Below are positions 12,101 through 43,322 of a stretch of DNA of 43,322 nt, in pieces; within the stretch, counting starts at the first letter, position 1, and every line of letters begins with the position of its first letter. Origin of the DNA: a virus; the IMG/VR virus record IMGVR_UViG_3300031772_000072, positions 1 through 43,322 of that record, one strand, 5' to 3'. The notes beneath the pieces are model-generated. The model did no database searches. It saw only the letters and a program-made list of their open reading frames with translations, and had not been told where the DNA came from. The translations under genes were made by a program, and so were the position numbers.

Positions 12101-15100
12101 TTTGGCGGTAATCGCTTGGCTCTAGACACGGACGGGTGGATGGGTCGTGCCGCAGGGTGCGTCCTTGCGACCAGTTCGACCTTCCCCACTGGCCCGACGA
12201 CCGGGTTGTCGTCTGTGTAGGTGAATGCTTGGGAACCCGCCTTCGGCATCCCCAGATACAAGTCACTCGTCTTGCCGGATGCCGTTGCGTCGAGGAGGTA
12301 CTTCGCGTTGAGAACGAAGTATCCCTCGGTCAGAGGAGCCGCCTTCTCTCGATCCAGATAGTCGTGGGCTGCGTCTGGCCTCAGCGACATAACCACGCCG
12401 ATGTTCTCTCGCCTTAGACTGCCTCCAGGGGAAGTCCTGACCGGAATTTCGACTGTCTTACTGATTTTCCTGTCCTTGTCGCCGGTCGTGAGCCGCCAGC
12501 TGTCCTTGGACGGTTCAATGATGACTCCAGGACTGCGCGGGTCAGCAAATAGCACCAATGTCTTGAGTGCCTGTGCCAATTCGGCCCTGTTGACGGCGTA
12601 CACCTCGGACGCCTCCCGAGGCAACACCGCCTCATAGTTCGGGAAAGTCCCACTGAGGTTCCTGCTTATGACCTCCGCGCCGCCAAAGCGGAAGATGATC
12701 TTCGGGGACTCATCACCGCCGCCGGTACCGACCGAGATGCTGACTGGATTTCCTTTCGCGTGAGTACCGACGATACCAAGGGCTTTCGCGGGCACAAGAA
12801 CCCGAAAGTCAGCCGCACCCGGCGATTCTACCGTCTTGGCAATCAGCCGATGGCCGTCCGTGGCCGCGATGGTGACTTTTCCGCCCTCTGCCTTTATCAG
12901 TGCGCCGTTGAGTTCGTACCGTGATACCCCTTTCGATATGTGACTCTGTGCTGCACGCAGGATGTCAGGGTCGTTCAGGACGGCGGCTGGCTTTTTCTCC
13001 TTCAGTTCCGGCCACACTGGAAACTGGTCGGCCTTCTGACCTGGATCAGGTTGCAAGTCGTTTCCGACCCGCTGGTACATTCCGTCCGCCAGATCGGTCT
13101 TCGTCTTGGCCCATACCTCAAGGTCGGTTGAGTAAAGTTCACCGCCCTTGGCAAGCGAATCCACCAGGATTGGGATTGTGGACTTCTTCTCTCTTACCGC
13201 ATTGTGGAGGGCCGAGTCGTCAATCTTCCTCGGACCGACCGCACGGACGGACGGATGAATCGGTCGTGCCGGGACCTTCGAAGGTGGGGGTGCCAACCCC
13301 TTCGAAGGGGGAAGAATGCCCTCGGTCGGGACCGCCGCACGGCCACCCGCGACGTAATCCGACCCTGCCTCAATGACCTGCGGTTCGGAGAGTGTGCGCA
13401 CCTTCGCCTTCAGGGCATCGCGCTCTTCCTCGGTCAGTACGGGTCGCTGGGAGGGGTCAGCCTCGTATTTTTCAATGCGTGCCTGAAGTTCTCTGCCCTC
13501 CAGGACGGCGTTCCGCAATTCCTCGACGGCGTTGAGTCGCTTCGTCCCAACCGATTTGTTCACCTTCGCCAGTAGGTCTTCGACTTGGGCTCGTACACGC
13601 GGCAAGGTCTGGATTCGCCGAAGTTCCTGCTCATGCGCGAAGTCCGGTCGGGGTTCTGTCGCCGCAGTTGGGGCTGGTGGTTTCGCCACAGTGGCTTCTG
13701 GCGGGACTAGCGCGGGGGCGGCCGTTGTTTCCCTGGCTTCTGGAGTCGCAGGGTGTCGTTTTTCCGGCTCCGCCCCCACGCTGTACTTCGCTGCAAGGTC
13801 GGGGTAATCCTTCAGGACTTCGGGGGGGACAGGTTTGCCATTCTTCACCGCCCAGGCGATGCTTTTGGCATGGCGGTTACCCTCGAATTTCGCAAACTGC
13901 TTATCCGTCAGATGCGACAGCGACTGGGGTTTCTCGGCAATGGCCTTGGCAACCCACTCGTCTCTCCTCCAAATATACGGGGTTCTACCTCGGTCTTCGG
14001 TGCTCTTGGCCTCGGCCCTTGCCTTGGCCTGGGCGATTCTCTCATCGGATTCCAATGTGCGGATTCGGGATTCGATGTCCATCCTCCGCATCGTATTCTT
14101 TTCCCAAGTCGCACGTTGCTGCTTACCCATCTGGCCGACTTGCCAGGGAGAAATTCCACCTTCGGACATGAGTGGGGTGGCGAGAACCGCTCGGTTTTCC
14201 GCACGCAGCGTTTTGACCTCTGCGGTACGCTCCTCCGGCGTCATCTGCCAGACTTCTTTGCCGCCAGGTTGCGGTTTTCCCACTTCGGCAACTGGCGGTT
14301 TCTCCAGTGCGGGGGGTGCCTGCTTGCGCGCGAATTCCGCCAACCGTTCCTTGACTCTTGCCTCTGTCACCCCTTCCAGTGGCACGGCTAAGGTGCTGCC
14401 AATCGAGGGTTCGTTGAACAGGACCAGCGCCGGGGCATCCCCGACTGCCTCTTGGATTCCTTTGTACTTACCGCCCGCACCTTCGACTATCTGGCGAATT
14501 CCCCGGCCTTGGACGACAGCGGCCTTCTCTGGGGCCTTCGCGGGTTCGGGCAGTGTCGGTTTCGGCGCGGCGGCTTCGGGGACGACCGGAGCCGTAGGCG
14601 CGACCCCTGGTACTGGGGTTCCTTGAGCGCGAACCTTTTCCGCCCGTGCCTCCAGAATGTCCTGCAACGCCGCTTGGGGATTCTTCTCTCCCGACAGGCG
14701 CATGTGTTCTTGGACTTCCATGCGAAGGCCACGGTCGAGACGACGTTCTCCGGTATCCACGATTGGCAGTTTTGTGTGTGCGTCAATGGCAACGACTTTG
14801 CCTTGAACGCCTGGGGGTGGTTCAACTTTCGGAGCCGGTGGGGCTTCTGCCGTAACCGGTTTGGGGACGACCGCACCCACTTGAGGTACGGGCACGGGAG
14901 TCGGGGCAACTCCGGGTTGCGCCACAGGTTCAGTCGGCGCCGGCAGGGCACGTTGCGGAGCGGTAGGCAACTCTCTGGCTGGCCTGAACGCTGGCGGTTC
15001 GGTCGTGACGAACTTCGGTCTTGGACCCATCGCGGCCCCGGCCACACCCGCCGCACCGAAGAGTACCTGGGAGGCGGCAGCCAGTTTCCCCTCAAGGTTC

Positions 15101-16071
15101 TTGGCCTCTGTGAAGTTCTTGGTTCCTTCGCCTACAAATCCTGCTCCGACGGCGCCAGAGGCAATCCGTGCTGCCTGTGCGGTGTTGTGGGCCATCTTGG
15201 CGGCCTCGTAGGCGATAACGGCCTTCTGGTAGGCTGGAAGGAGGGTGGCTGACGATGCACCCGCCGCCCTCAACGCTGAGTAGTCCGCCACAGCCGCCTT
15301 TGCAGCCGTTAGGGATTCAGTCGCAGTCTTGAAGGCCTTGGCGACGCCGTAACCCGCCGCCATCAAAGCAAGATTGAACGGCGACGTGAATCCTGACAGG
15401 ACCCTCCCGCCGCTTTCGGCAGCGCCAAGTAGAAACGCCTCCGTCCGGTTCTTGCGGATGTTGGGGTTGGCAAGTTCTTCTTGTATCTCCTTCGGCGTTC
15501 TTCCTCCGGCCAGGAACTGCGTTATCTTCTCTGGCGAGATGAGACCGTCGAATACCGCTTTGCGACCAGCCTCGGTCTCAGCGGTTAGTTCTTGACCCGT
15601 TACGAAGGGTTTGCCAGCACCGTACTTCGCGCCGACCAAGGACGGAATGCCCTGCGGCTTGCGTGGTGCCTGGGCCGCCGGTGCAGTTACCGGTGGTGGC
15701 GCAGCAAGGACTGGCGGCAGAGGCTCCGCTGGCGGCATCGCAGGAATCCTAGCCGTTGCAAAAGTCGGGGAGACCGGTCGTTGTTCGGGACGAGACACCG
15801 GCGATGGCGGTAGTGGGGCCGGAAGCCCCAGCGGGGTCAAATCTTCGGCAGTGGGCGGGACGACGGCAGCGGGAACGTGGCCGGGGGGAAGTTGCAGAGG
15901 CGGCAATCCGGGCAGACCAGGGGCCACCGCGGCCGGATGTGCAGGAACCAAGGAGGGAAGAGCAGCGCCCGGAATTGCTGGTGTCAGACCCAGTTCCTTC
16001 GCCAGTGCTGTCGGCTGCACAGGGGCAACCGCAAGCCCAAGTTCCTCCGCTAGGGTCCTCCGTTCGGCCAC
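9187..16071 (-). CDS. giant polyvalent virion protein with embedded beta-clamp domain
   Basis: 2294 aa, GTG start at 16071 with GGAGGAG upstream. Residues 1-30 hold two LAxELGL repeats; 30-140 and several later linkers are Pro/Ala-rich. About 210-350 is an Ala-rich helical, membrane-active-looking stretch; 700-765 contains the YPDLAAKY polyvalent-protein motif after GKPVPPEVLKD. Residues 950-1305 read as a three-domain DnaN sliding clamp. About 1500-2260 matches the C-terminal large-polyvalent-protein (LPD38-like) region, with a hydrophobic span near 1992-2012. Such proteins are packaged and injected with the DNA. No lytic or helicase motif was found. Confidence 0.85.
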   Translation of the reverse strand: MAERRTLAEELGLAVAPVQPTALAKELGLTPAIPGAALPSLVPAHPAAVAPGLPGLPPLQLPPGHVPAAVVPPTAEDLTPLGLPAPLPPSPVSRPEQRPVSPTFATARIPAMPPAEPLPPVLAAPPPVTAPAAQAPRKPQGIPSLVGAKYGAGKPFVTGQELTAETEAGRKAVFDGLISPEKITQFLAGGRTPKEIQEELANPNIRKNRTEAFLLGAAESGGRVLSGFTSPFNLALMAAGYGVAKAFKTATESLTAAKAAVADYSALRAAGASSATLLPAYQKAVIAYEAAKMAHNTAQAARIASGAVGAGFVGEGTKNFTEAKNLEGKLAAASQVLFGAAGVAGAAMGPRPKFVTTEPPAFRPARELPTAPQRALPAPTEPVAQPGVAPTPVPVPQVGAVVPKPVTAEAPPAPKVEPPPGVQGKVVAIDAHTKLPIVDTGERRLDRGLRMEVQEHMRLSGEKNPQAALQDILEARAEKVRAQGTPVPGVAPTAPVVPEAAAPKPTLPEPAKAPEKAAVVQGRGIRQIVEGAGGKYKGIQEAVGDAPALVLFNEPSIGSTLAVPLEGVTEARVKERLAEFARKQAPPALEKPPVAEVGKPQPGGKEVWQMTPEERTAEVKTLRAENRAVLATPLMSEGGISPWQVGQMGKQQRATWEKNTMRRMDIESRIRTLESDERIAQAKARAEAKSTEDRGRTPYIWRRDEWVAKAIAEKPQSLSHLTDKQFAKFEGNRHAKSIAWAVKNGKPVPPEVLKDYPDLAAKYSVGAEPEKRHPATPEARETTAAPALVPPEATVAKPPAPTAATEPRPDFAHEQELRRIQTLPRVRAQVEDLLAKVNKSVGTKRLNAVEELRNAVLEGRELQARIEKYEADPSQRPVLTEEERDALKAKVRTLSEPQVIEAGSDYVAGGRAAVPTEGILPPSKGLAPPPSKVPARPIHPSVRAVGPRKIDDSALHNAVREKKSTIPILVDSLAKGGELYSTDLEVWAKTKTDLADGMYQRVGNDLQPDPGQKADQFPVWPELKEKKPAAVLNDPDILRAAQSHISKGVSRYELNGALIKAEGGKVTIAATDGHRLIAKTVESPGAADFRVLVPAKALGIVGTHAKGNPVSISVGTGGGDESPKIIFRFGGAEVISRNLSGTFPNYEAVLPREASEVYAVNRAELAQALKTLVLFADPRSPGVIIEPSKDSWRLTTGDKDRKISKTVEIPVRTSPGGSLRRENIGVVMSLRPDAAHDYLDREKAAPLTEGYFVLNAKYLLDATASGKTSDLYLGMPKAGSQAFTYTDDNPVVGPVGKVELVARTHPAARPIHPSVSRAKRLPPKRRRLAAPQNISDFDPSRDVVIRRGDRTFVVDKRGEHAEVEVQSDVLTPEFRENIAKLNPQQRSRMAEEVRGSRYLSSEGRAERLALLEELEGKVPPLAPIPPGPGAMTAGAVGEAYQGTPLEQLGQRVREIREAGPGPVTPSATAAKLPPPVGEAPPPPTTPVAAATAFDEAKAMASKIWEWYKNGYTVTDFKRAIRKFSGAEYRSSLAADEFAEQMKRAVPDPLRQEAILNWIEAEGDEAVLRQRAVASAPDVRAGYEAALTLTGQERTYARQAEGYYSDQLERGQEAGILEEGVKAYATHLWNRPNAVGKALASEFVEGRLQPNFKFAKRRVFASDFEGEQAGFRSPNKSFAYRILVYNASFEKSLYSRALIKSLLKGKAKDGRPLAAVSGKGVPITEPPEAQLVKPHAKPEEIRDYKEIPHPALRKWKWVGKDVMGRPTYLQGDVVIHPEAYTKLRNILGKSAIREWQVGGYRPGRAIMRFSSEMKQVLLSFATFHQVTIGVHGLEHRANAFNPIHIDLTQSDQAALVDAGWGGAGGQDWREQFMEGVASGGLLHKVPLIGPVLHWYTRQLFGNRGYVRRVGMTMALHALRRNRQRYADTETEEQILWRTADQSNAAFGMLNYTVLGRNKTLQDIFRLLCLAPNFTESRARFVGQALRPGGQEQLVALLGGAVVLYTIARLLSKLADDDWHWDRRFNTVIRGHEYSFRSIQGDIYHLYDDPRGFLYNRMNPTYLRPVVEALSGRDRFGKKRGFMRQFQDWLVGQSPIPIQGFLNPSRDYGILQSALQAIGAYERKFRTRAERLAREKVYETLPLSEQTREQEAKGRLMAGLVENVRAGERPTAEIRQKAGNLSPAEMQTILRRGSSTQLAEDFKRLPIKEAAEVWIAADAKERRTLRPLFLEKATNAIKKAAPSEVAEITDIVRAALGETVTPAVPFAGLYRQVRKFWHPGVAPTKPTSPAVAAARP
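12157..13224 (-). other. DnaN-like sliding clamp domain inside the polyvalent protein
   Basis: Protein residues 950-1305. Domain 1: STIPILVDSL and STDLEVWAK (DnaN: TIPIL and ATDLE). Domain 2: YELNGALIKAEGGKVTIAATDGHRL and, after VLVPAKAL, GTFPNYEAVLP (DnaN: LNGVLLE, ATDGHRL, VPRKAL, GxFPDYxxVIP). Domain 3: NRAELAQALKTLVLFAD and FVLNAKYLLDA (DnaN: xRADLLxALxRV, FNxRYLLDAL). All three domains appear in the normal order and spacing. The C-terminal PMR-like tail of true clamps is not obvious. Confidence 0.75.
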
Positions 16072-23616: not shown

Positions 23617-24813
23617 TCACGCATAAGCAGAGCAATTAAAACCTCTGCTATGCTTCTTCTCGTTCACGACGATCCACGCGAGTTCGCCCCGGACTTCGTG
23701 GGTGGTGGCGTCCGCCCCAGCCTTGACCACGTCCCTGTAGAGCGCCACGTCACGGTTGACGCCGTTGCCGTTGAGGTAGAAGAGAGTCACAGCTTCCAGG
23801 TCGATGATGTAGAACTCATCGTTGTACCCGGCCTGTGACGCAACCCCCGCCTCCATCAGCCAGTTCGGAGCCAGGAGCAACTCGCCGTGCGGCAACATGA
23901 ACCGCTTGATGTTGACACCAAAGACGGTGCTTTCCACTTCAGTCTTCAGGGCGTTCTGCGCGAAGTAGTTGATCCCTGAATGGACTGCCGGCGCAGCAAT
24001 GAGCAACTTGCGGTGCTGGCTGTACCGGAAGGCAGTCTCCGACACGGTGTTCCACTTCGTCAGGGTGGCAGTCGTCGCCATGTCGTTGACGTTCGTGCTG
24101 ACGCGCGACTTGAACCCCATCGTGGTGCGCACGCTCGCAGGAGCCGCAAGACTTTCCGAAGCCCTGCCCCAGAGTCCCGCAGCCTCGATCTGCTTCTTCA
24201 GCTCGATCTGGGCCTTGGCAATCTGGTATTCCTCGTCCGGCTCGCCGTAGACTTCCGTGGCCTGCATAGTGCCGGTGATCTGAATCGGCTCACGGAAAAT
24301 CTGCGTGTAGGAGGTGATGGTGCTCTTGGTGGTCGAACGGACAGAGCCCAGAGCCGCCCCTTCCGCGAAGGCCGAACCGATGATGCGGAGTGCCTGACCG
24401 ACATTGATGCTGTCCTGCCCGGCACCACCGATGCTACGGGTAACGGTCAGAGTGTTGGAACTGATTGCCGTCACGCGGACGATTTCCTCGGCTGCGGAAC
24501 TGGAATTCGCTTTCTGGACGGCCACCAAGTCGCCCACGGCAAACAGCGTCCCGTCGCTGACCAGGATGCCCGTGGCGACCGAACTGATGGTCGCATTGCT
24601 GGCGTGGTAGTCCCACAGACCACGCACATCGTCTTCAATCTGCTCGATGCGGGGACTCTTGGAGGGTTTCTTGCGCTTGGCGTTGATGGACATCACGAGT
24701 AGAGGGGTTACATCCCTGTCCAGGAGGGCAATACGGTCTCCGATTTCCCTTACCTGGATTCCCTCACCTGTGATGGCCTGGTAGGTGGACCGTGCAACCA
24801 CTACGTTTGCCAT
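23617..24813 (-). CDS. major capsid protein (SU10/DUF5309 type)
   Basis: 398 aa. It opens MANVVVARSTYQAITGEG and contains the DUF5309 features: about residues 160-205, a TTKSTITSYTQIFREPIQIT segment followed by GTMQATEVYGEPDEEYQIAKAQIELKK, and later a PNWLMEAG-VDLEAVTLFYL region. GGAGAAATCAG precedes the ATG. It forms the HK97-like shell. The preceding gene is the scaffold and the following one a small zinc protein, the standard order. Confidence 0.85.
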   Translation of the reverse strand: MANVVVARSTYQAITGEGIQVREIGDRIALLDRDVTPLLVMSINAKRKKPSKSPRIEQIEDDVRGLWDYHASNATISSVATGILVSDGTLFAVGDLVAVQKANSSSAAEEIVRVTAISSNTLTVTRSIGGAGQDSINVGQALRIIGSAFAEGAALGSVRSTTKSTITSYTQIFREPIQITGTMQATEVYGEPDEEYQIAKAQIELKKQIEAAGLWGRASESLAAPASVRTTMGFKSRVSTNVNDMATTATLTKWNTVSETAFRYSQHRKLLIAAPAVHSGINYFAQNALKTEVESTVFGVNIKRFMLPHGELLLAPNWLMEAGVASQAGYNDEFYIIDLEAVTLFYLNGNGVNRDVALYRDVVKAGADATTHEVRGELAWIVVNEKKHSRGFNCSAYA

Positions 24814-32237: not shown

Positions 32238-34238
32238 TCAATCTGGTTTGCTTATCCGAAACGTCCCGCCCCGCAGGGTCAAGACAATCTGGCCTGTGCC
32301 GCTAGTTGAAACATCATCGGGCGAGGTTGCTGCGTCGGTTGTGAATCTGATTCGCCCGGTGCGACTCCCGCCTGCTACCGGGGTGAACGAGACATTCACC
32401 ACGCAACTCGCTGCTGCCGCCAAGGTGGCCCCGCAGGTGGTGGAGTCGATGGCGAAATCTCCGGGACTGGTCGGCGCGGAAGTTGTAGAGGCCACAATGC
32501 TCGTGATGTTCAGCACGGCATCGCCCGAGTTGTAGAGCACGATCATTTGCGTTGGACTTGTGGTGCCCACCACCCGTGCGTCAAAGTCCAAGCCAGAAGA
32601 CGAAAGACTAACCACTGGAGCACTCCCCGCTGTGCCGGTTCCCGAGAGTAGAACGGTTTGTGGACTATCAGCCGCATCATCGGTGAAAACCAGATTGGCG
32701 GTTCGTGCTCCCGTTGCACTAGGTGTGAAGCTGACGCTCACCGTGCAGGACGCTGCCGGTGCCAAAGTAGAACCGCAGGTGGTTGTCTTGGGGAAGTCGG
32801 CGGCGTTGGTTCCTGTGACGTTGATGCTTGTAATGTTCAGTGTCTCGGTGCCTTGGTTTGTCAGGGTCACAATTCGGGGAGAATCAACGCAGGGACCGGG
32901 GACGGTGCAATTATTGAAAGTCAAACTCACTGGAGTGGGCGAAGCGGCGGACAAGGACGAACCGATAAAATGATCGGCCATCACGATCTCGTCCCAGTAT
33001 TTGGTCACATCGAGTGGGTACATGCCCTCATCAATCTGGCGACCAAACTCAAAACTGGTAAGTGCCGTCGTATCGGTCCCGCGTATGTTAGCGTTGATTA
33101 TTTCGGCGACTTCGACCGGCCCGGAATCGGGAGTGCAGGTGTTCCCATACCCACTCATACACTGCACCCAAAGTCTAATCTCACCATCACGAATATAAGA
33201 CGGAGTGACGGTGTTGGGTTTGGTCTCTAATTCAACGTAGTACCAATTGTCATAGAGCCAGTGATAATGAGTGCTGCTGCATGTTGACAAGAGGGAGGCT
33301 TGGCAGGCATAAGGCGCCCTGGTTGTTTGAGTATCAAGAGTATAAGGCTCCCCGCCGCCGGGGGCGTTGGTGTTGCCGATGAAGAGTGCAAACCAAGTAT
33401 TGCCTGGATATGTTCCGGTGGTTGCGGCGCAGGACAAGGTGTGCCACTTTGAACTATCGGAACTTTTGAAGTAAGTCAACTTGCCGCAGCCTTGCCAGTG
33501 CCCATCGTCCGAACCGGCGTCGTTCTTGTGCATTAGAAGGAAGCCGCGATAGAAAACATGCTCCAAGCCGGGCATGGCTTCGGTATGAGTCCAGTAGCCA
33601 CCGCCACCGCTGTGATTTACGTCATGTGGGCAGGCATCGCTAGTGGTCGGCGTCGTCACGGTGTCGTTCACCAGACCCGTTCCTGCGATGCAGGTATGCC
33701 CGCCAGGACAGGCATCGGGTTCAGTCCAGTCCACTCCTACTGTCGCTGGGGTTGTGGTTTGCAGGTATCGTGTGCCCGAAACCGTTCCTGCGTAGACCAT
33801 GTAGCGGTCGATGGCAATCTGGGCTGCTGGAGTAGTTATATTGAGCAATTGATTCGCACCGACATTGACGCTCTGTTCCGCAGAGGGATAGGTCTGGTGC
33901 CCCGACCAAGTGTTCCGGCAAGCGGTAGACACATAGGTGTAGGTGACGTAATAGGTCCGCGCCAAATAGGTCGAGGTGCCAGTTGATCCTAGCGTGCCAG
34001 CAGGCGGGGTCTGGACTCCGCACACTGAATATCTGACTGCCCCGGAGTAGGCCCCGGAGTAGGCTGGACTGGCACTGACGTTCAGGTTGATACCGGGAAC
34101 CGCACAGCCTGAGGCGTCGTACCAACTATCCCACTCGCTGAACGTCCCAGAGTCGAAGGTGACGTGCAAGTAGGTCGTCTGCGCCTGAGCAGTTAGGCAG
34201 GCAAGCAGCAAGAATGCGAGTAGGCGGCCGATTTTCAT
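32238..34238 (-). CDS. secreted spike/fibre-like protein with two choice-of-anchor-D repeats
   Basis: 666 aa. MKIGRLLAFLLLACLTAQAQ is a Sec signal peptide (cleavage after AQA). The 400-residue middle is beta-rich and Cys-containing (DSGTFSEWDSWYDASGC, SDACPHDVNHSGGGGYW, WLYDNWYYVELETKPN) like a lectin or lyase-type fold. Two homologous C-terminal Ig-like repeats (about 435-540 and 546-652; LNITSI, CGxxLAxAASC, VSFTP, SGTG) match choice-of-anchor D/ASPM-SPD-2-Hydin domains. Base composition is lower in GC around 33000-33500. ATG overlaps the next gene by 4 bp. Confidence 0.75.
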   Translation of the reverse strand: MKIGRLLAFLLLACLTAQAQTTYLHVTFDSGTFSEWDSWYDASGCAVPGINLNVSASPAYSGAYSGAVRYSVCGVQTPPAGTLGSTGTSTYLARTYYVTYTYVSTACRNTWSGHQTYPSAEQSVNVGANQLLNITTPAAQIAIDRYMVYAGTVSGTRYLQTTTPATVGVDWTEPDACPGGHTCIAGTGLVNDTVTTPTTSDACPHDVNHSGGGGYWTHTEAMPGLEHVFYRGFLLMHKNDAGSDDGHWQGCGKLTYFKSSDSSKWHTLSCAATTGTYPGNTWFALFIGNTNAPGGGEPYTLDTQTTRAPYACQASLLSTCSSTHYHWLYDNWYYVELETKPNTVTPSYIRDGEIRLWVQCMSGYGNTCTPDSGPVEVAEIINANIRGTDTTALTSFEFGRQIDEGMYPLDVTKYWDEIVMADHFIGSSLSAASPTPVSLTFNNCTVPGPCVDSPRIVTLTNQGTETLNITSINVTGTNAADFPKTTTCGSTLAPAASCTVSVSFTPSATGARTANLVFTDDAADSPQTVLLSGTGTAGSAPVVSLSSSGLDFDARVVGTTSPTQMIVLYNSGDAVLNITSIVASTTSAPTSPGDFAIDSTTCGATLAAAASCVVNVSFTPVAGGSRTGRIRFTTDAATSPDDVSTSGTGQIVLTLRGGTFRISKPD

Positions 34239-35857
34239 CGAGTCATTCCTGTAATCTTAAAGGCGAACTTATCCAGCCAGACATCCTTGGTTGGAGTTGT
34301 CGTGTCGCGGTTGATGAGCACAGTCCCGGCGGTGAGACCACCCGTCGGGCACCCAGTAGCCACAGTGACCTCGCTATTGGCATCAAAAGTAAATCCGATG
34401 GTTCCCGCTACACCAGTCCCGCGAATCTTGATTTTGTGCCAACCAGTGTCCACGGTATAGGTCGTCACGCTGTCTGTGGCGGAACCACCTGTGATGCATC
34501 CTACGTGGAAAGCGGCATCAGGAGTACCCAAGTTGGTATCATACCGAAGACCGATGAACTCTGCGGGCACGGCGTTAGGTGCCGCCGTCGTGTAGCCAAC
34601 GTAGAAACTCGTATTGGTGGTCACGTTGGCTGTGCCATTCATGCGGAATATCCAAACGCTGTTCCAGGCAAGCGTAGTGTTGCCGAGCGCCCCGAAGGCG
34701 ACGTTGCTAGAACTCCCCGCGAGGCTAAGAGATGATCCCTGCGCGGTGACGGCAGCAGTGGTCATGCGGAAGACACCCAGGTTGGGTATCACGCTGGCTA
34801 AATTGGCAAAAACTCCGTTTGCTCCAATAGCCATCGGCGACCAACCGAGTGTTCCCATCACTCCGGCGTATGTTGTGGTGTTGGTTGGTGAAGGAAATTC
34901 CTCATCGAGCTTGAGGCAGGTCGTATCAAGCATGTCGCATTCCATCGACACGGTAAGAGTTGAATTGGCCCCGCCGTCAGCCACGGCAATCCCCTGACCT
35001 GCGGTTATGATTCTTTCTGCCGTCAAGTCGGCATCATGCGAAATGGTTATGAAGGTGTCAGCGGTGGATGCGCCTGTTCCACCGCAGGCCGCGCCTGCAG
35101 TATCCAATTGCCCACCAGCAACCCATTTTGCGCAGTGGTCTGTGGTCGGGTCCGCACCCGCTGCCTTGGTTACAAGTAGGGCTGCGGGAGAACTGCCATA
35201 AAGGTCAACTGGCTTGGTGAGGGCATACTGAACGGCTGTGTCATTGAAAAACCAGAACAGGTCGGGACTTCCCGCCAGAATCCCCCAATCGCCTGCTACT
35301 GGGGAACCGGGGAGTGCTGCGGGAGTGATGCTAGATGGTTTTTCGCTCGTAGCCGTCAAACTTGCCACGCTTATTCCGCCAGTCCCGGCGTAGGTCAGGG
35401 TCGTCCCATCATCGGAAAGCAGCGAATCGCCCAGAGTCGTCGCTCCCGTAAACTTCGGCAGGTAGTTGGTGGTCCCCGAGCCGCTGATCGCCCCGCAGGC
35501 CGCTCCCCCGTCTCCTATCCCACCGCCCGCCACCCACTTCACGCAGTTGTTGGTCGTCGGGTCATCACCCGCCGCCTTCGTGACGATTAAGGCCGCTGGC
35601 GAACTGCCGAACCACGGAAGACTGGTTCCGTCTATCACCAGCTTCCCGTCGAAGGTCGTCAGAAACCCCCGAGAGTTTCGGATGGTCTGAGCGGGATCGT
35701 AGTCGGGGTCTGTGCTCAGCATCACCACGATCAGCCCAGCGTTCGTGACCCTCAGCCCGTTGGAGTCAATGTAGTCTCCGCGAAGGCCCTGCGGCCTGAG
35801 TAGAAGGCCCGCCAGAAGGCCAGCGAGAAGTAGAACGTACCGCATTCTCGAAATCAT
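34235..35857 (-). CDS. exported fibre-like protein with internal duplication
   Basis: 540 aa, TGAGGA before the ATG at 35857. Hydrophobic start MISRMRYVLLLAGLLAGLLL then RPQGLRGDYIDSNG suggests a signal peptide. Residues 83-122 and 220-259 are a duplicated module (GSSPAALIVTKAAG, CVKWVAGG, AACG). NYLPKFTGATTLGDSLLSDDG is a classic phage fibre segment. The C-terminal 250 residues are a jelly-roll-like beta domain. Likely a receptor-binding fibre or its exported relative. Confidence 0.72.
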   Translation of the reverse strand: MISRMRYVLLLAGLLAGLLLRPQGLRGDYIDSNGLRVTNAGLIVVMLSTDPDYDPAQTIRNSRGFLTTFDGKLVIDGTSLPWFGSSPAALIVTKAAGDDPTTNNCVKWVAGGGIGDGGAACGAISGSGTTNYLPKFTGATTLGDSLLSDDGTTLTYAGTGGISVASLTATSEKPSSITPAALPGSPVAGDWGILAGSPDLFWFFNDTAVQYALTKPVDLYGSSPAALLVTKAAGADPTTDHCAKWVAGGQLDTAGAACGGTGASTADTFITISHDADLTAERIITAGQGIAVADGGANSTLTVSMECDMLDTTCLKLDEEFPSPTNTTTYAGVMGTLGWSPMAIGANGVFANLASVIPNLGVFRMTTAAVTAQGSSLSLAGSSSNVAFGALGNTTLAWNSVWIFRMNGTANVTTNTSFYVGYTTAAPNAVPAEFIGLRYDTNLGTPDAAFHVGCITGGSATDSVTTYTVDTGWHKIKIRGTGVAGTIGFTFDANSEVTVATGCPTGGLTAGTVLINRDTTTPTKDVWLDKFAFKITGMTR

Positions 35858-35874
35858 TGGTTTTTCCTCAGTGG

Positions 35875-36666
35875 TTATTGAATCACCACCACATTACTGC
35901 GGGCCGGAGGTGGCGCCGGTATGAGTGCAATCGACATCGCGCCCTTATAAGAGGTCTGCGCCAGTGTGACGGTCGTATTGCCGTAGGCCCCAGCCGAAGC
36001 CTTCGTGCCGGTCGCCGAACCGTGTCCGCCGCCCAACCCGATAGTGTGGGTGTTGTCGCCTCGTTCTGTGAGGCTCCCCAAGTCACCATTGGTCCAACTC
36101 GCAAACTGTGCCGTGCTCGTGGCGTTGTAGCTTGAGGTGGAAATCACAAAGACGAGGCAATCCGCAACTGTCGTCGTCGCTCCGGGAATTACGCCGGTGA
36201 GGTCGTCGGCTGCGCCATCGTTTCCCTCCGCATACACATTCCAGGGGTCTCCCGAAGTTATGCACCCTGAGAAAAGATAGATTCGGGCGGTCGCATGGTT
36301 CCCTGGGGCTGCGACGACGGGGGCGGTATCGCCACCGGCACAGCGTTTCCAATAGACTGCAAGGCGCGAGGCGGGATTAACCGCCGCTGTACCCGCTGCC
36401 TTGTTTGCTTGGGCACCGAGCTCGACAAAGCCATTTGCCGTGGTAAGCGAAATTGCCTGGTTCTCGGATTCGACGACCAGAATGGCGATGTCATTGGCTA
36501 CTGGATCGTTCGGCGCGCCAGGATAGGGCGGGGTGATTGCGCTCGAACCAGTCGTGAATGTCCCCGCCGCCTTGAAAGTCGCTGCGGCCCAACCCGACCC
36601 GCATCCAATTAGGAGGGCTAACCCAACAAGCACCGCACCGAAGCTAATTGATCTGCGCTTTGACAT
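35875..36666 (-). CDS. exported virion-like beta protein
   Basis: 263 aa. MSKRRSISFGAVLVGLALLIGCGSGWAAATFK has a signal peptide; LIGC could also be a lipobox (Cys22), so lipid anchoring is possible. The mature part is Gly/Thr/Ser-rich with many Asn and no enzymatic motif, typical of a spike-associated beta domain (NDIAILVVESEN, GFVELGAQANKAAG, ARIYLFSG). Overlaps the next gene by 23 bp. Confidence 0.65.
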   Translation of the reverse strand: MSKRRSISFGAVLVGLALLIGCGSGWAAATFKAAGTFTTGSSAITPPYPGAPNDPVANDIAILVVESENQAISLTTANGFVELGAQANKAAGTAAVNPASRLAVYWKRCAGGDTAPVVAAPGNHATARIYLFSGCITSGDPWNVYAEGNDGAADDLTGVIPGATTTVADCLVFVISTSSYNATSTAQFASWTNGDLGSLTERGDNTHTIGLGGGHGSATGTKASAGAYGNTTVTLAQTSYKGAMSIALIPAPPPARSNVVVIQ

Positions 36667-37129
36667 GAATCCTCACCACCGTCGGGGTGTTCGCCATCGC
36701 CGTGATTTGGAGGTTGTGCGGCACGTCTGCCGCGATAATCGCGTCGCTGAACGAGGTCGTGGTCTGGGAGTCCGTATCGCATACCAGCGTGGTCGTAAGG
36801 CTGTTCGTCCCTGCCGTGTTCGGCGTGGCCTCCGCACGCTCGTCGAACTGAATCGAGACCGTGCTGCTGGCAACGTCGGTCGAGCACGCCACACGCTGCA
36901 ACGTCACGGCTGTAGGCCAGTAGAGTTGAATCTTGTTGGTGTCCGCCGTGGTCGGCAAGAATATGTTGATGGTCTTGGTGATGGTCTTGTTCGCCACGGC
37001 GAACTGCTCGATAGGCAGGGTACTCTTGACCTGATTGTCCAGGTTGAGCTTGGTCTCCCCCTGCAAGGTCAACGCCCAGGCTAGAAACAGAATGCCCAAC
37101 ACACCGAGATAGGACTTGAGTCTGCCCAT
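36644..37129 (-). CDS. exported small fibre-like protein
   Basis: 161 aa from the ATG at 37129 (AGGGCGTGACT). MGRLKSYLGVLGILFLAWALTLQGE is a signal-peptide or TM-like start. It continues TKLNLDNQVKSTLPIEQFA, similar to the LxxQVKGxLP opening of its neighbour, followed by a Thr/Ser/Asn-rich beta region (NIFLPTTADTNKIQLYWPTAV). Probably a fibre-tip relative made by domain swapping with the next gene. Confidence 0.65.
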   Translation of the reverse strand: MGRLKSYLGVLGILFLAWALTLQGETKLNLDNQVKSTLPIEQFAVANKTITKTINIFLPTTADTNKIQLYWPTAVTLQRVACSTDVASSTVSIQFDERAEATPNTAGTNSLTTTLVCDTDSQTTTSFSDAIIAADVPHNLQITAMANTPTVVRIHVKAQIN

Positions 37130-37142
37130 AGTCACGCCCTGG

Positions 37143-37832
37143 CTAGTACCGATACGACGCCTTATGAACGTCCCCCGTCTTCGGGATCGCGCCCGCCACA
37201 TAGACGATAGTGAGGCTGGTCAGCGTGTAGTCCGCACCTCCCGCAATCATCAACTGGCCGTTCTTATAGAGTGAGAGTGACCCGGCGGGACTCGGCGCGT
37301 TGGCCAGCGTGAAGGTGTCATTGGTCCCGTTGATCGTCCCGGTGGGAGCCACATTATCTACAAAGGTTCCACTCAGGATGCCGACGCAACCGAAGGCGTG
37401 ACTCGTGGTGTTGTAGGTCAAGGCCTGCGTGCCGCTGGAGCAAGAGGGAACGGCGCCCCAACTCCCGGTGGCTGACGCGGTTGTTAGTATCACCGTATCG
37501 GCTGCGGCGTTGGTCGGTACGCTTGTGCCGTTCACTTTGACCACGGTCACCACGTTCGATCCCGAGGTCGTGGCATCCCCGGAAAGTTCCCCCGAACTCA
37601 TTGCCGAACCACTGGAGCGGAGTACGCCAGCAGAGAGCGAACTCTGCCCCGTGCCGCCGCTGCCGTACGGCAAGATGCCCTTCACCTGCGTGGTGAGGTC
37701 AATTTGGGTGACTGCCGCAATGTTCAGGTACCCAAAGGCAATCAGCGCGGCATACAGCAGGGCAGAGGGAAGGCTCGCCTTTCGCCCCCAGGCCCCGTAC
37801 ATCGTCTTTCCTCGAATGTCTCGAAACTGCAT
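37143..37832 (-). CDS. exported fibre-like protein with C-terminal repeat domain
   Basis: 229 aa from the ATG at 37832 (GGAGGTTGGAA); the ATG at 37802 also has a GAGGAAAG site. A hydrophobic segment (PSALLYAALIAFGYLNIAAV) follows a short basic start. TQVKGILPYGSGGTGQSSL is the usual phage fibre entry sequence. The C-terminal 75 residues (INGTNDTFTLANAPSPAGSL then YKNGQLM) are homologous to the two repeats of the upstream protein. Likely part of the receptor-binding apparatus. Confidence 0.68.
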   Translation of the reverse strand: MQFRDIRGKTMYGAWGRKASLPSALLYAALIAFGYLNIAAVTQIDLTTQVKGILPYGSGGTGQSSLSAGVLRSSGSAMSSGELSGDATTSGSNVVTVVKVNGTSVPTNAAADTVILTTASATGSWGAVPSCSSGTQALTYNTTSHAFGCVGILSGTFVDNVAPTGTINGTNDTFTLANAPSPAGSLSLYKNGQLMIAGGADYTLTSLTIVYVAGAIPKTGDVHKASYRY

Positions 37833-37842
37833 TTCCAACCTC

Positions 37843-38769
37843 CTACAAGAATTCGTACCACGCAATCAACCCGCTACCCGCCGTCGGCGGATAGTTAAAG
37901 CTGATGGTATTCCCCGAAACCGTGAAGTCATTTGCCACGCCCGACCGCAGGGTCACGCCATTGAGTACCAGCCTCAGACTGGCTGGGGGTGAGGGCACAT
38001 AGGCCAGGGTGAAGGTTGTATTCGCCCCGTTGATTTCCCCCGTCGGTCCTTCCTCGTTCGACCAACTTGTTCCAGCCGTTTGATACCAGCAAAGCAGACT
38101 GCTTCCCGCTGGCGGCGGATAGTTGAAGGTGATGGTAGAACCCGAAAGGCTAAAATCATTCGCCGCGCCAGACCGAAGCACCTGGCCATTAAGTACCAAT
38201 TGCAGACTTGCCGCCGGTGAAGGCGCATGAGCCAGCGTGAACGTTACATTCACGCCGTTGATTTGCCCTGCCGGACCTTCCTCGTTTGACCAGTTCGCGG
38301 CCCCTCCGCCCGTGACAGAGCAATCAACCGCTTTCGTGGTGCGGTTCCAACCGCACATCACGTTAGAGCCGACGAAATTCACCGGCGCCACGCCAGCGAG
38401 CCAGACTTTAACCCGCGTGCCCTCGTCCCGGATTTCCAGGAATAAGGGATCGTGTGGTGTCTGCCCGAAGGCGTGAACGCAGGCAAGAAGTCCAACAACC
38501 AGAACCGCCCCCGCCAGGACGAGACGCCAGAACCAAAGACGCCTACGAGCCAATTTCCGCTCCCGACCCGCCGCGTTGTGCGTCAGCACCGAGTAAATCG
38601 CCCAGGCTGTCAGCGTGTCATCGTCGTAGTCCGGGTGGGCAATGCGCCCTCGCCTCTTCAGCTTTTCGACCTCAACCTCGTCCACTTCGGATTTGCTCCG
38701 GGCCAGACGTGGGCATCCCTGGCTTTCCAACCACTGACGCAACAGACCTTGAGGGGTTACTTTCATCAA
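37843..38769 (-). CDS. membrane-anchored protein with two receptor-domain repeats
   Basis: 308 aa. Residues 1-79 are a charged, cytosolic-looking region, about 80-98 a hydrophobic span (WRLVLAGAVLVVGLLACVHA), then two tandem copies of a 70-residue fibre domain (160-229 and 236-305; SNEEGP, GxINGxN, FTLAxxPSPxASL, LVLNGxxLRSG, NYPPxAGS). The same domain ends the neighbouring 229-aa protein. A phage fibre domain attached to a membrane anchor is unusual. Overlaps the 96-aa gene by 4 bp. Confidence 0.72.
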   Translation of the reverse strand: MMKVTPQGLLRQWLESQGCPRLARSKSEVDEVEVEKLKRRGRIAHPDYDDDTLTAWAIYSVLTHNAAGRERKLARRRLWFWRLVLAGAVLVVGLLACVHAFGQTPHDPLFLEIRDEGTRVKVWLAGVAPVNFVGSNVMCGWNRTTKAVDCSVTGGGAANWSNEEGPAGQINGVNVTFTLAHAPSPAASLQLVLNGQVLRSGAANDFSLSGSTITFNYPPPAGSSLLCWYQTAGTSWSNEEGPTGEINGANTTFTLAYVPSPPASLRLVLNGVTLRSGVANDFTVSGNTISFNYPPTAGSGLIAWYEFL

Positions 38770-39056
38770 GATTCATCCTGATAGAAATCCGAAGTGCCGG
38801 AGAGAGTCTCGACCCACCCCACGACGTCCCCCGGCTGGAAAAACCTTCCTGGCGAACTCTCGAAGGTGTAACTCAACCCAGCGAGGAGTACGGTTCCCTC
38901 GGTGTTCATTGCCCCCTTGCGGACCCTGAAGTCAGTCGTCGGGTAATCCGCGACGGCCCGCTCCTCGCCCACGGTGATCTTCCGGCAGACGGTCACGGCG
39001 ACTATCGCTTCCGGGTCGCCGACATCGTTGACCATGAGGTTGCGTATCCAAGCCAT
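38766..39056 (-). CDS. hypothetical small protein
   Basis: 96 aa, MAWIRNLMVNDVGDPEAIV..., beta-rich with a DFRVRKGAMNTEGTVLLAG stretch and an acidic end. Its start is shared with the tailspike stop. It lies between tailspike and anchored receptor-like protein. Possibly a spike-associated chaperone or adaptor; no family recognised. Confidence 0.6.
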   Translation of the reverse strand: MAWIRNLMVNDVGDPEAIVAVTVCRKITVGEERAVADYPTTDFRVRKGAMNTEGTVLLAGLSYTFESSPGRFFQPGDVVGWVETLSGTSDFYQDES

Positions 39057-41398
39057 CAGATGCCCCCGACGTGGCAGGCTAGTTTGAACGATTCTGCCGC
39101 CACCGGAGTGCCGTTGAATGTCAGGACGAGTGCCGTGGCGCTGGTGTCATTCGTGCTGAAAGTCACCGTTGGTTGGCTGGCGAAATCCTGACGGTTGCAC
39201 GTAACAGGCGGCGCTGTGGTCCACGTCCCATCGTGGTAGGTGAGCGTTATAGTGGGACTGGCTCCCTGACCTGTCCCCGCCGAGGTAATAACAAACGAGA
39301 AGAACTGGTCAGTTCCGCGCACGGTTCCAACACTGGCAGTGCTGCCCCATCCACCAGAGAGGGCGAAGTCGCCTGCGGCGAGAGCCGTTGCTGCCTTGGC
39401 TGAGAGGCGCTTTACGTACGTGGTCTTACTATCAAGTGTTACGCCAGCCGTCACGTCCCCGATTAGGTAATTTTGCCCTGCTTCTGAAATCGTGCCAAAC
39501 GCCTGATTGTTGTATAGATGAACCGTGCACCCCGTTACGGCTGCCGTCTCGCCCAACATAGAAAAGAGGTTTTGGACAACACTACCGGATATTGGTAGGA
39601 CATTTACCAATCCTCGATACAGAGCTGCGCCAGCCGTCGAAAAATAGATGGTGCTTCCTACATCACTTACAATTGATGTTTCTAGCTTGATGTTGTGGTT
39701 CAAGCCGCTCAAGTCCAGCAACCGGGGAAACACCTCAATCTGCCCCGAGACCAATACATTGTCTGACTGATAAATGCGCAGGGCAAAATTGTTTGTTCCG
39801 CCGGTGTTTCTGTAGAAGCTTGAATTGTTAAAATGGAGGTTCCGCACCATACTAAGGAATAGGGCGTTGCCTATGCCGTTAGTGGCCACAGCAAAAGAGC
39901 AGTTTTCATCAAACGTCATAAAGCTCGTCGAGCTTGAGCCGCCAATCGTTTTAAACGCGCTGGCTACGCCGAACGTAGCACTACTTGTTATCACCGCCGG
40001 ATTGTCAGCCCCAAACATGGAATGCTCGACGGAAAAGATTTCAGCGGCCCGGTTATAGAGAGCCACAGTTCCGTTCCCGCCGTTCGCTGCCGGGCGCGAA
40101 GCAAGAAATAGGTAAACCTGCCGGAGGGTGTTGAAGTCCGCAAACGTATTGGTAGTTGATCGCGCAAAAAGCAGGCCTACAGAGGGGATGCTTGCACCAT
40201 TATCAATAAACAGGTTCTCTAGTGTGACAAGTCTTGAGCCAGTGAAGTCGAACATGATGCCGACATGATTTCCGCGCAGATTGGCGCCTCTCTGCTTTTC
40301 TAATACTCCGGTCAGGCTAGTCGATCGTGGCCCGACTAGAGATATTCCAAGCTGGAAATCTGTGACATCGATCTGAGAATTTAGAAGGTAAATCCCCGCT
40401 GGAAAGTAAACACGGCCACCCGAATTAGAAGCGCCAGCAAAGTAGTTCGAGTTAATGGCGGCTTGGACGGCTGCGCTATCGTCGGTCACCCCATCAGCCC
40501 TTGCTCCCCACCATTGAGGATAAACCTCTTTCACCGCACCATGCCCAAATACAACTTGGCCTGTACCTGCCAGCGAGAATATCTGCGCTACTGGAGCGGA
40601 TAGAGGGCCGTTGATTGTTACCGTTATCCCGTTTGGAACAGCAAAGATTGAGCCAACGCCGAACATATGCTCTATATTTGCGGGGAAGGTCGTGTTTGCC
40701 CCAAAAGAATAGGTGCCTGCTCCCCAAAGTATCCTGACGTTCTTCGTTGCTGCCGTAAAAACATCGCTGGGAATCGTCTGCGCCCCTTCCATCCCGACAG
40801 CGTTCACGGTGCCGCCCGTGATGGATAAGACCGCAATGCAGGCAGCAATCTTCGCGCCACCGTCCGCACCTGACATCAAGTCGGCACGGCAGACAGGCCC
40901 CAAAAGCCTTCCAGCCAAGTTGCTGCTGTTTCCCGCATCCAGCCGCAGGTAGGTACTGTCGCCTGTGGGCGGCGCAACCACCGGCGTAGTCGTGAGCGGC
41001 GTGGCCGAGTCTAGGTTGAGGGACGCGACATCAGCCGAGCAAGCGTTGCTTGTCACTACGCAGAGGCGATAGTCAGCGCTCCGAAAGGGTTCTCCCGACT
41101 GGAAGAACGCCACCCGGTAGAACGTTCCCGCTGGTGTGATCAGATAGTTGCCCTGAATCGTGACCCCAGCCTGCAACTGTGCTGGCGTGACCCTGAAAGG
41201 TACCTTGCTGAGCAGGATGCCCGTGCCCGTCAGCTTCGGCACGTTCGACCCGAAATTCATCAACTGGAAAGTGGCGTAGTCACCCGTTCCCGAAAGGAGA
41301 CTGCCCTGAATGTCCTTCATCGTCCCGGTCACGGTAGTGGCCCAGGCCGATGAAGCCCAGAGGAGGGCGGCAAGTAACGCAATGGCGCGAAGTTTCAT
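39056..41398 (-). CDS. tailspike, pectate-lyase-type beta-helix
   Basis: 780 aa from the ATG at 41398 with AGGAG upstream. MKLRAIALLAALLWASSAWATT is a signal peptide. About 290-340 carries VYPQWWGARADGVTDDSAAVQAAINS and GGRVYFPAGIYLLNSQ, the entry of the pectate-lyase superfamily right-handed beta-helix used by phage tailspikes to degrade surface polysaccharide. The beta-helix portion (39400-40450) is visibly more AT-rich than its neighbours, as if acquired. The C-terminus (GTGQGASPTITLTYHDGTW) looks like a tip domain. Confidence 0.82.
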   Translation of the reverse strand: MKLRAIALLAALLWASSAWATTVTGTMKDIQGSLLSGTGDYATFQLMNFGSNVPKLTGTGILLSKVPFRVTPAQLQAGVTIQGNYLITPAGTFYRVAFFQSGEPFRSADYRLCVVTSNACSADVASLNLDSATPLTTTPVVAPPTGDSTYLRLDAGNSSNLAGRLLGPVCRADLMSGADGGAKIAACIAVLSITGGTVNAVGMEGAQTIPSDVFTAATKNVRILWGAGTYSFGANTTFPANIEHMFGVGSIFAVPNGITVTINGPLSAPVAQIFSLAGTGQVVFGHGAVKEVYPQWWGARADGVTDDSAAVQAAINSNYFAGASNSGGRVYFPAGIYLLNSQIDVTDFQLGISLVGPRSTSLTGVLEKQRGANLRGNHVGIMFDFTGSRLVTLENLFIDNGASIPSVGLLFARSTTNTFADFNTLRQVYLFLASRPAANGGNGTVALYNRAAEIFSVEHSMFGADNPAVITSSATFGVASAFKTIGGSSSTSFMTFDENCSFAVATNGIGNALFLSMVRNLHFNNSSFYRNTGGTNNFALRIYQSDNVLVSGQIEVFPRLLDLSGLNHNIKLETSIVSDVGSTIYFSTAGAALYRGLVNVLPISGSVVQNLFSMLGETAAVTGCTVHLYNNQAFGTISEAGQNYLIGDVTAGVTLDSKTTYVKRLSAKAATALAAGDFALSGGWGSTASVGTVRGTDQFFSFVITSAGTGQGASPTITLTYHDGTWTTAPPVTCNRQDFASQPTVTFSTNDTSATALVLTFNGTPVAAESFKLACHVGGI

Positions 41399-41411
41399 TC
41401 CTAGCAACTCC

Positions 41412-41588
41412 TCAGTTCACCCTGGCCGGATTGCCGGGTCCCTGCTCCCTGTAAACTGCGAGCAACTGCATCATTCCCTCTCGGTCAACGTGGGTCGTAA
41501 TCGAAAGAATCTCGACAGTCCGCGACCAGTCGTTGTATCCCTTCTCGATGCTCAACCAATTCAGTCCTGCGAACGCTTTAACCAGCAC
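41412..41588 (-). CDS. small protein after the portal gene
   Basis: 58 aa from the GTG at 41588 (GGGAGGAC, overlapping the portal 3' end by 11 bp). Reads VLVKAFAGLNWLSIEKGYN, then VDREGMMQLLAVYREQG, mostly helical. The longer frame would start inside the portal. Unknown, possibly a portal-linked adaptor. Confidence 0.5.
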   Translation of the reverse strand: MLVKAFAGLNWLSIEKGYNDWSRTVEILSITTHVDREGMMQLLAVYREQGPGNPARVN

Positions 41589-43322
41589 CCTGTCCTCCCT
41601 TCGCTTCGGAGGCAGGCACACTCGGTTCGGTCAATTCCTGAGCGGCCTTCGCCGCTTGGTTCAGTCTTTCCACGCTCTTTAGGGCGTCCCGAGCCGCAAG
41701 ATCCGTGCTCGGGCTGAGCCCGGTCTTCCCCAGGATTTCATTCTGTACGTCAGCCGGCAACTCCTCCCACTTGATGGCCAGCGAAATGCTTACCCGCGTC
41801 TCCGGGACTCGCGGTGCTGGCGGCATTTCTGGATTCAGCAGTTTCTCGGCGTCTCTCGCCCGGAAGGTGTTGGCCAACTGCTGTGCAGCCTCCCGTTTGT
41901 TCCAGAGCACTGGGTCGGCACTCGCTACGAGGTAGAGTTTCTCGGCGCTTGCCCTTTTGAGTTCGTCGTCCAGCGCCAACGTGCTTCCCAGTTCTGGGAT
42001 GACCTCTAGGTCTTCCTGGAGTTCCAGCGGGTCCTTTATCGTCACTGCCGCACGTTCCCCTGGAGCACCACTCGCCAGCGTCGTGACCGACTCCCCTGGG
42101 CCCGGCTGCGGCGGCTTGGCCGACCCCATGAACTGCGGGGGAATCTCAGGGATCGAGGAAAGCCCCTGCTGCGCCATGAGCAACTTGATGGTCGTTTCCT
42201 CAGCCAGAGATTCGTTCAGGCGCTCAAGTTCGTCAGCCGACAGTGCCTCACCAGCTCTTTGTTGGAGCATCCCGAGTGTCGCCACCTGAGAGGCTCCTGG
42301 AACCGCCTGACTTTCCACGCCGAAGGAATTGAGGGAGGGTTCAGCGTTCTGCATCTGCATAAGGATGGCTTTTTCCGACTCCCAAGCCTCACGCGGAACT
42401 TGAACTGTTATGGGTGTACCAATGTCGCCCGGCGTTTTTACGCGAAAGACCCGCATACACCCCCGGTTCTGAATCTGCTCCGGGATGTCCGCACCCTCAC
42501 GGATGGGCACGAGCGGCATCAAGGCCGCAGTAACTAAATCGGTACGTTGCGCTACAGTAACATTATGCAAACGCATAAGATGCCGCAGGATGCGTGGCGA
42601 GGAATCCCCCACACCCCACAAAAGGTCTGGAATCGGTGTGAATGACGAGAGGTTGTAGCGACCGTTGAGGTCCCACGGCAACGGCATGTACCCGTCGTCC
42701 TTGTCACTCTCCGTGTAGTTCAGGAGGTGCTTGTCGTTCCCGATCCAACGCACGTGCGGCCAGCCGTCTTTGAAGACGTACTCGCTGGTAATCTTGAACC
42801 GTTTGACCGGGAGGAGTTTCACGTCCACCAACGGTTCGGTCTTGAAGATTGCCGACCGCAGTTGGGCCTTCAGATCCTCGTCCTTAGCAGCCGAAGTGGT
42901 AGAGTACGAAACGCCATCGAGGAGTTCCTGCAAGCGCTTGGTGTCGAATATCGGTCGCTCTGGGGCCTGGGGGTCGCGGGGATCGGAATACTTTTGCTTG
43001 GCAAAGTAGGCCAGCCATTCCACATCGCGCATCGCTTCCAGGATTATCCAGGCCGCACTGTGCAGACTTTCGAACTCTGGCTCTGGATAGAAGTCCCCCA
43101 GGAATACGAATGAGGATACCGGACCCTCGTACTTGCGGATCGCCTCGCGCCGGAACATCTCAGGGCCTACGGAGGCCATAAGTTCCTGTGTCTGCTGCGG
43201 AGGGAAGTCCTTGTATGGCCGAGTCTGCTTCGCTTGAATTTCATCCACGCTCGGGAGGTGCAACTTCCCAGTCTCATCGTCCATGACGACGCCGATTTCG
43301 GCCAGTACGTCTTCGGTCTTCC
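41578..43322 (-). CDS. portal protein (3' part; runs off the right edge)
   Basis: The frame is open to the window edge and reads in-frame before the first internal Met at 43284 (GVVMDDETG), so the 5' end lies outside. 568 aa from that Met. A mid-segment resembling phage portals has PIPDLLWGVGDSSPRILRHLMRLHNVTVAQRTDLVTAALMP and a PLVPIREGADIP loop; C-terminal coiled coils (ERLNQAAKAAQELTEP) follow. The large ring-forming protein serves as the DNA channel. The scaffold and capsid are 15 kb away, an unusual separation. Confidence 0.75.
   Translation of the reverse strand, partial: KTEDVLAEIGVVMDDETGKLHLPSVDEIQAKQTRPYKDFPPQQTQELMASVGPEMFRREAIRKYEGPVSSFVFLGDFYPEPEFESLHSAAWIILEAMRDVEWLAYFAKQKYSDPRDPQAPERPIFDTKRLQELLDGVSYSTTSAAKDEDLKAQLRSAIFKTEPLVDVKLLPVKRFKITSEYVFKDGWPHVRWIGNDKHLLNYTESDKDDGYMPLPWDLNGRYNLSSFTPIPDLLWGVGDSSPRILRHLMRLHNVTVAQRTDLVTAALMPLVPIREGADIPEQIQNRGCMRVFRVKTPGDIGTPITVQVPREAWESEKAILMQMQNAEPSLNSFGVESQAVPGASQVATLGMLQQRAGEALSADELERLNESLAEETTIKLLMAQQGLSSIPEIPPQFMGSAKPPQPGPGESVTTLASGAPGERAAVTIKDPLELQEDLEVIPELGSTLALDDELKRASAEKLYLVASADPVLWNKREAAQQLANTFRARDAEKLLNPEMPPAPRVPETRVSISLAIKWEELPADVQNEILGKTGLSPSTDLAARDALKSVERLNQAAKAAQELTEPSVPASEAKGGQGAG

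Follow-up and report, generated by a model that had tools for sequence, protein, structure and literature searches.

Tailed-phage assembly is taught as a wholly cytoplasmic process, and the P22 tailspike gp9 lacks a signal peptide and is produced in the cytoplasm. Exported phage proteins are known from other settings: Llp of phage T5 is a small lipoprotein that masks the receptor, and pIII of the filamentous phages, which are assembled at the membrane, binds the receptor from the virion. Both travel by Sec, as we predict for the proteins described here, but neither is the spike of a tailed phage. Porphyromonas phages carry signal peptides that fit the general secretion system of the host on genes of unknown function, spanins and capsid proteins (PMC10367356), which, unlike the genes of the present locus, are not spikes. 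For DGR target proteins, the absence of signals has been taken as support for phage origin (PMC6199706).

Two cultured phages come nearer to the present case. Burkholderia BcepC6B gp19 and Xanthomonas PBR31 orf035, annotated as tail fibre or putative structural protein, have a signal before the fibre, of the form MKKLIA...ALG or MKKLIA...AFG followed by ATL, which goes unmentioned in the annotations that we saw. In these phages the signal-bearing fibre comes after a signal-less tailspike, whereas in the locus described here the spike itself bears a signal. Our literature search found no description of signal-bearing spikes, with preprints and most subscription papers outside its coverage, and is weak evidence of novelty.

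The DNA analysed, hereafter the window, is the whole of a 43,322-base IMG/VR record (Table 1); such records are fragments of unstated completeness. Its late genes stand in podovirus-like order on the minus strand: the tailspike gene adjoins the presumed portal gene, and beyond the fibre block come sugar and methyltransferase genes, a possible scaffold, the major capsid protein, tail genes and an ejection-type protein of 2294 aa. Genes for a glycosyltransferase and an epimerase are found close to the block. The window lacks the start of the late region, for a close relative, G008 (27.9 kb; presumed portal 93% identical), has further genes upstream of the presumed portal. A signal-bearing 483-aa protein is encoded there in G008, and the window ends before that position. 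Embedded in the 2294-aa protein is a beta-clamp domain of DNA polymerase III (phrog_947 2e-25, PF02767 2e-10); a sliding clamp within a presumed virion protein is odd.

Table 1. Positions of the features discussed, in the window unless another locus is named; signals are predictions
Feature	Position	Strand	Remarks
Window, IMGVR_UViG_3300031772_000072	43,322 bases		whole IMG/VR record; podovirus-like
148-aa ORF	4785-5231	+	Shine-Dalgarno AGGAGGA; lipobox-type signal (LLFAC); no family match
2294-aa ejection-type protein	9187-16071	-	beta-clamp domain at residues ~1014-1210
Major capsid protein	23617-24813		phrog_1328
SprT-like HEMVH protein, 156 aa	31771-32241	-	N-terminal membrane segment 32137-32220; overlaps end of 666-aa gene
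666-aa Cys-rich protein	32238-34238	-	two choice-of-anchor-D (ASPM/SPD-2/Hydin-type) domains; signal MKIGRLLAFLLLACLTAQA
540-aa fibre-type protein	34235-35857	-	PKFTG, C..C repeats; signal MISRMRYVLLLAGLLAGLLLRPQGLRG
263-aa fibre-type protein	35875-36666	-	signal with AAA site and lipobox (LIGC); homologue in L002
185-aa ORF	36644-37201	-	161 aa from codon 25 (37129); signal MGRLKSYLGVLGILFLAWALTLQG
240-aa ORF	37143-37865	-	229 aa from codon 12 (37832); fibre motifs TQVKGILP / GTGQSS
308-aa fibre-domain protein	37843-38769	-	phrog_18673 tail fibre 1.4e-5, phrog_10330 7e-6
Membrane segment of 308-aa protein	38446-38535		about residues 79-108
Stretch of 308-aa gene with in-frame TTG	38446-38769	-	TTG at codon 73; would give a shorter form
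96-aa protein	38766-39056	-	signal-less; between spike and 308-aa protein
Tailspike	39056-41407	-	783 aa; 780 from ATG at 41398; pectate-lyase-like
Tailspike Sec signal peptide	41339-41398	-	MKLRAIALLAALLWASSAWA; predicted cut after AWA
Presumed portal	41578-43284	-	by position and sequence; no convincing family match
483-aa protein of G008	L002 1678-3129		signal-bearing
C-terminal domain swap loci	L018 7425-8234; L020 4001-5074; L021 2768-4372; L022 2609-4417		fibre domain behind signal or T7-type anchor

The fibre block and its N-termini

Signals were called with a rule-based test (not SignalP) that requires a basic n-region, an uncharged hydrophobic core and small residues at -3/-1, with a cut-off of 24 to 27 depending on the script and with gene starts picked by rule. 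It recognised nine of nine E. coli signal peptides. Within the block, six of the eight genes at 32238-41407 were positive, those for the 783-, 666-, 540-, 263-, 185/161- and 240/229-aa proteins, and these are the same six for which a preliminary description had noted signal- or membrane-like N-termini. The SprT-like gene adjoining the block was also positive; otherwise the coding strand had no positive gene, and the portal, capsid, 651-, 479- and 2294-aa and other virion genes of the window all tested negative. Six positives among eight genes would arise by chance with p ~2e-8 at a 3% background (non-fibre genes), ~3e-6 at 7% and, with the 17% seen in other fibre-like genes as background, ~5e-4. 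Three further positive calls in the window were plus-strand ORFs. The 148-aa plus-strand ORF may be a further exported protein outside the block; its kinship with the 161-aa protein was tested and is unsupported.

The Shine-Dalgarno sites point to the signal-bearing starts. That of the tailspike (GAGGAG) lies 9 nt upstream of an ATG at codon 4, exactly position 41398, and that of the 229-aa form (AGGAGGT) 5 nt upstream of codon 12; the 161-aa start has a weak site only. The sole longer downstream match, AGGTGA before TTG codon 65 of the 240-aa ORF, is shorter than the AGGAGGT site. Starts downstream of the hydrophobic segments behind good ribosome sites, named in the preliminary description as evidence against export, were thus not what we found, and on the strength of the Shine-Dalgarno sites and the relatives described below we rejected a wrong-start artefact. 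Cleavage motifs are textbook in the 783-aa (AWA) and 666-aa (AQA) proteins and weaker in the 540-aa (LRG) and 161-aa (LQG) proteins; the full n, h and c features of Sec/SPI signals occur in the 783-, 666- and 263-aa proteins, with weaker c-regions in the 540-, 161- and 229-aa forms.

The spike matches PF12708 (E 1.8e-11, 44.7 bits against a cut-off of 27) and the pectate-lyase tail spike PHROGs 15455, 2234 and 7458 (E 2.7e-8 to 4.7e-6), and it shares its pectate-lyase module (E 6.6e-8) with the pectin lyase of PDB 7chu, which we take to be a protein of Geobacillus virus E2. From this domain we infer a beta-helix spike which, like P22-type tailspikes, would be expected to attach to the tail by an N-terminal domain. 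No virion-binding domain was recognised in its own N-terminus, and homologous spike N-terminal domains were seen in signal-bearing relatives. No signal-less relative of its N-domain was found, a DNA pattern scan giving only unrelated sequences (e.g. SPOR-type domains).

The relative G008 bears on the conservation of the signals, which the preliminary description had proposed to check: its spike (in L002), a homologue with 84% identity, has an identical signal, and its 540-aa protein keeps residues 1-60 (95% identical) with the remainder exchanged. In the slot of the 666-aa protein (NF012200 1.5e-35; also PF15780), G008 instead has a signal-bearing 1173-aa protein without clear similarity. The window signals are nearly identical to those of L002/G008, so that comparing the two is uninformative and gave no clear evidence of selection. 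The 161- and 540-aa proteins had no direct matches in the phage collection, and the predicted structure of the 263-aa protein has a pLDDT of 32.

Two proteins resemble membrane anchors. The membrane anchor previously described for the 308-aa protein was located by reading of the sequence; this protein also contains the domain NGxNxTFTLxxxPSPxxSLxLVLNG twice. A shorter form from its internal TTG would open with a good signal peptide, and a dual start is possible. In the 229-aa form, a hydrophobic segment precedes the fibre motifs that is signal-like but more anchor-like in appearance. The 156-aa SprT-like protein has a HEMVH motif and a signal- or membrane-like N-terminus (PF10263 19.4 bits, under the cut-off of 25.6), and is a possible periplasmic phage metalloprotease. 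It is nearly identical in G008.

Signals in other phages and at domain junctions

A search with the window spike returned eleven loci, several of them diverged podovirus contigs with clear spike signals: L008, L009, L010 (three consecutive), L011 and L012, and L004 on its second spike. A profile confined to the pectate-lyase module, with no signal in it, gave 74 loci. In the IMG/VR loci from both searches, signals were present on 23 of the 74 pectate-lyase-type spikes and on 9 of the 313 non-fibre genes (>=200 aa) of the same loci (Fisher p 1e-11, with relatedness among loci ignored); other fibre-like genes were positive in 25 of 146 cases. As a control, we scored 88 genes that carry the GGKVYxY spike N-domain and come mainly from other phages, and one was positive. 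Signals are therefore a minority state, common in some phage groups and rare in others, and the signal-bearing state is probably derived. Six other phage records contain spikes that match the window spike, and the matched spike is signal-less in each. Control fibres (Bcep22-type L155 and other isolates) had no clear signals, one L155 fibre scoring 26.2, just under the count cut-off of 27. A disulphide rationale gained no support: cysteine number, density and parity are alike in signal-bearing and signal-less spikes, and hence give no sign of adaptation to oxidative folding.

In all, we obtained 102 signal-bearing fibre-like calls from 63 records in 53 N-terminal families, a few of the calls being non-fibre or likely false. 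In three unrelated families, the domain that follows the signal is the one that opens the protein in signal-less relatives, and this start coincides with the predicted cut, as a rule to 0-3 residues. In the gp19 family, the mature ATLxPIQLLNPAGSTSG of BcepC6B and PBR31 matches the Achromobacter prophage locus L150, which has M followed directly by ATKNPYQLLDSGASTSG (0 and 0 residues before the match); M precedes ATKNPYQLL in L150, against FG before ATLNPIQLL. The IGKEDFxLWDG family gave 2 and 2 residues before the match (L010 and L070), and the GGKVYxY family 6 and 6 (L008 and L031) and 3 and 1 (L076 and L086). Other pairs differ more, e.g. L173, where the likelier cut lies several residues after the chosen one. 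On a tree of the GGKVYxY domain (92 columns; six signal-bearing labels, of which L142 is probably false), the signal label needs five changes, and strongly supported branches force at least two.

Like BcepC6B and PBR31, most related Burkholderiaceae prophage genes encode a signal-bearing fibre. A gp19-family profile matched in 44 of 398 genomes sampled from the bacterial family to which a Paraburkholderia genome belongs, and among the best gp19-family loci 22 of 30 entries were signal-bearing. The rule missed an evident signal in L290, and several signal-less entries are truncated by the locus edge or comprise the C-terminal domain only. These prophage signals retain their features while the sequence diverges. 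The family's C-terminal domain is also found at the end of T7-type fibres in Pectobacterium CB5 and Klebsiella KpV74, which lack signals; this fibre domain has thus been swapped naturally between two kinds of N-terminus, a signal peptide in PBR31 and BcepC6B and a T7-type virion anchor in CB5 and KpV74.

Signals thus stand behind ribosome sites, recur across dozens of N-terminal families, and in three families precede the domains with which relatives begin. Genuine-looking export signals of this kind occur on spikes and fibres of many phages from soil and sediment as well as of Burkholderia-type prophages. Since the predicted cut is where signal-less relatives start, we regard the signals as apparently genuine, cleavable Sec signals in front of otherwise ordinary virion proteins. 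Sec export of the signal-bearing spikes and fibres is a well-supported prediction, given the tripartite signals, the Shine-Dalgarno sites, the recurrence in dozens of fibre N-termini and the signal-less relatives.

Virion parts, host-surface proteins or anchors

Whether the exported proteins end up on virions can be approached through near-complete phages. In G002 (48 kb), where we identified terminase, portal and capsid, one spike was recognised and it is signal-bearing; in G007 (37 kb), with an identified portal, terminase and head closure, all three spike or fibre genes are. Neither has a recognisable signal-free spike. This argument is weak because receptor-binding proteins can be unrecognisable. 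G001 and G005 each have one signal-bearing spike plus an unidentified or lectin-like protein without a signal. G009 and G004 are mixed. The 64.7-kb record G004 (L093-L096) carries six signal-bearing fibre-like genes alongside signal-less ones. Together with the spike-type mature N-termini and the recurrence of single signal-bearing spikes, G002 and G007 point to virion receptor-binding proteins rather than an extra host-surface set, and this favours the view that signal-bearing spikes are virion parts in at least some phages. The preliminary description had suggested an exported receptor-remodelling set. Its export part stands as a prediction; a special remodelling set gained no specific support, since signals occur on single main spikes in many phages and the mature N-termini of several signal-bearing spikes are homologous to ordinary spike domains.

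We propose that the window proteins are podovirus spikes and fibres made with cleavable Sec signals, exported, and mounted on virions at lysis, a reading to which we assign a probability of about 0.48. Late in infection, spikes would pass through Sec and, once signal peptidase has removed the signal, fold in the periplasm; head and tail assembly would meanwhile proceed in the cytoplasm. On opening of the inner membrane by the holin, virions would meet the waiting periplasmic spikes, which would attach to the tail by way of their usual N-terminal domains, making spike mounting the last assembly step and coupling it to lysis. Export, cleavage, virion incorporation and mounting during lysis are all steps that we infer from the sequences. 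For P22, heads and tail parts have been joined into complete phage in vitro (Israel 1967, as cited in PMC3741392), so late mounting is chemically possible. Speculative benefits would be that spikes are kept out of the cytoplasm, or that adsorption competence is delayed until lysis.

A somewhat unlikely alternative is that the signal-bearing fibres are exported without being virion parts, and coat the host surface or trim its glycans from the periplasm or during lysis. As with T5 Llp, they could mask receptors, which would spare progeny from capture by debris or keep out rival phages. This would suit above all the BcepC6B/PBR31 type: the short signal-bearing fibre after a signal-less tailspike, an arrangement seen in many Burkholderiaceae prophages too, adjoins lysis genes in both isolates, and with such a tailspike present the signal-bearing protein need not be the main receptor-binding protein. 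In the window, the glycosyltransferase and epimerase would fit, as would the lipobox of the 263-aa protein, but it is the only block protein with a lipobox-like motif (LIGC), the others being long and without one, unlike the short lipoprotein Llp. Phage genes with host-type signals are already known from Porphyromonas phages (PMC10367356). Against host-surface action, several signal-bearing spikes share N-terminal domains with the N-termini of signal-less spikes, G002 and G007 have no other recognisable spike, and a signal-less version of the gp19 family itself exists (L150).

Quite improbable is that the hydrophobic N-termini are retained as membrane anchors or hydrophobic tags, for instance to make the inner membrane a late assembly site where fibres are held, or to insert into the host envelope at entry. 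The anchor-like 308-aa protein and 229-aa form would agree with this, as would the weak cleavage motifs of the 540-, 161- and 229-aa forms. Retention is at odds, however, with the signal-less relatives that begin at the predicted cut, with n-regions of MKK or MKR before freely variable h-regions, and with Ala at -1 in 39 of 50 signal-bearing proteins, a preference that is partly built into the test through its -3/-1 rule. Least probable of all is that the signals are accidental hydrophobic starts, or leftovers of captured secreted host enzymes or surface proteins, with no phage role: the 666-aa protein does have choice-of-anchor-D domains, which are common in secreted bacterial proteins, and the nearly identical window/G008 pair gives no clear selection, but signals precede phage-type N-terminal domains in several families with the changes forced on the 92-column tree, the 540-aa signal persists while its body was exchanged, and the prophage signals keep their features despite divergence.

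Possible consequences for phage assembly

Beyond the window, we tentatively suggest that a recurrent class of tailed phages exports receptor-binding spikes via Sec and completes its virions only during lysis, from periplasmic spikes. The idea is directly testable because the feature is present in cultured Burkholderiaceae prophages and in two cultured phages. Annotation rules that count a signal peptide against a virion protein (cf. PMC6199706) would then fail. Were spikes exported by Sec, assembly would be finished in another compartment and its final step tied to lysis; particles would be non-adsorbing until lysis, and receptor-binding proteins would be shared between co-infecting phages.
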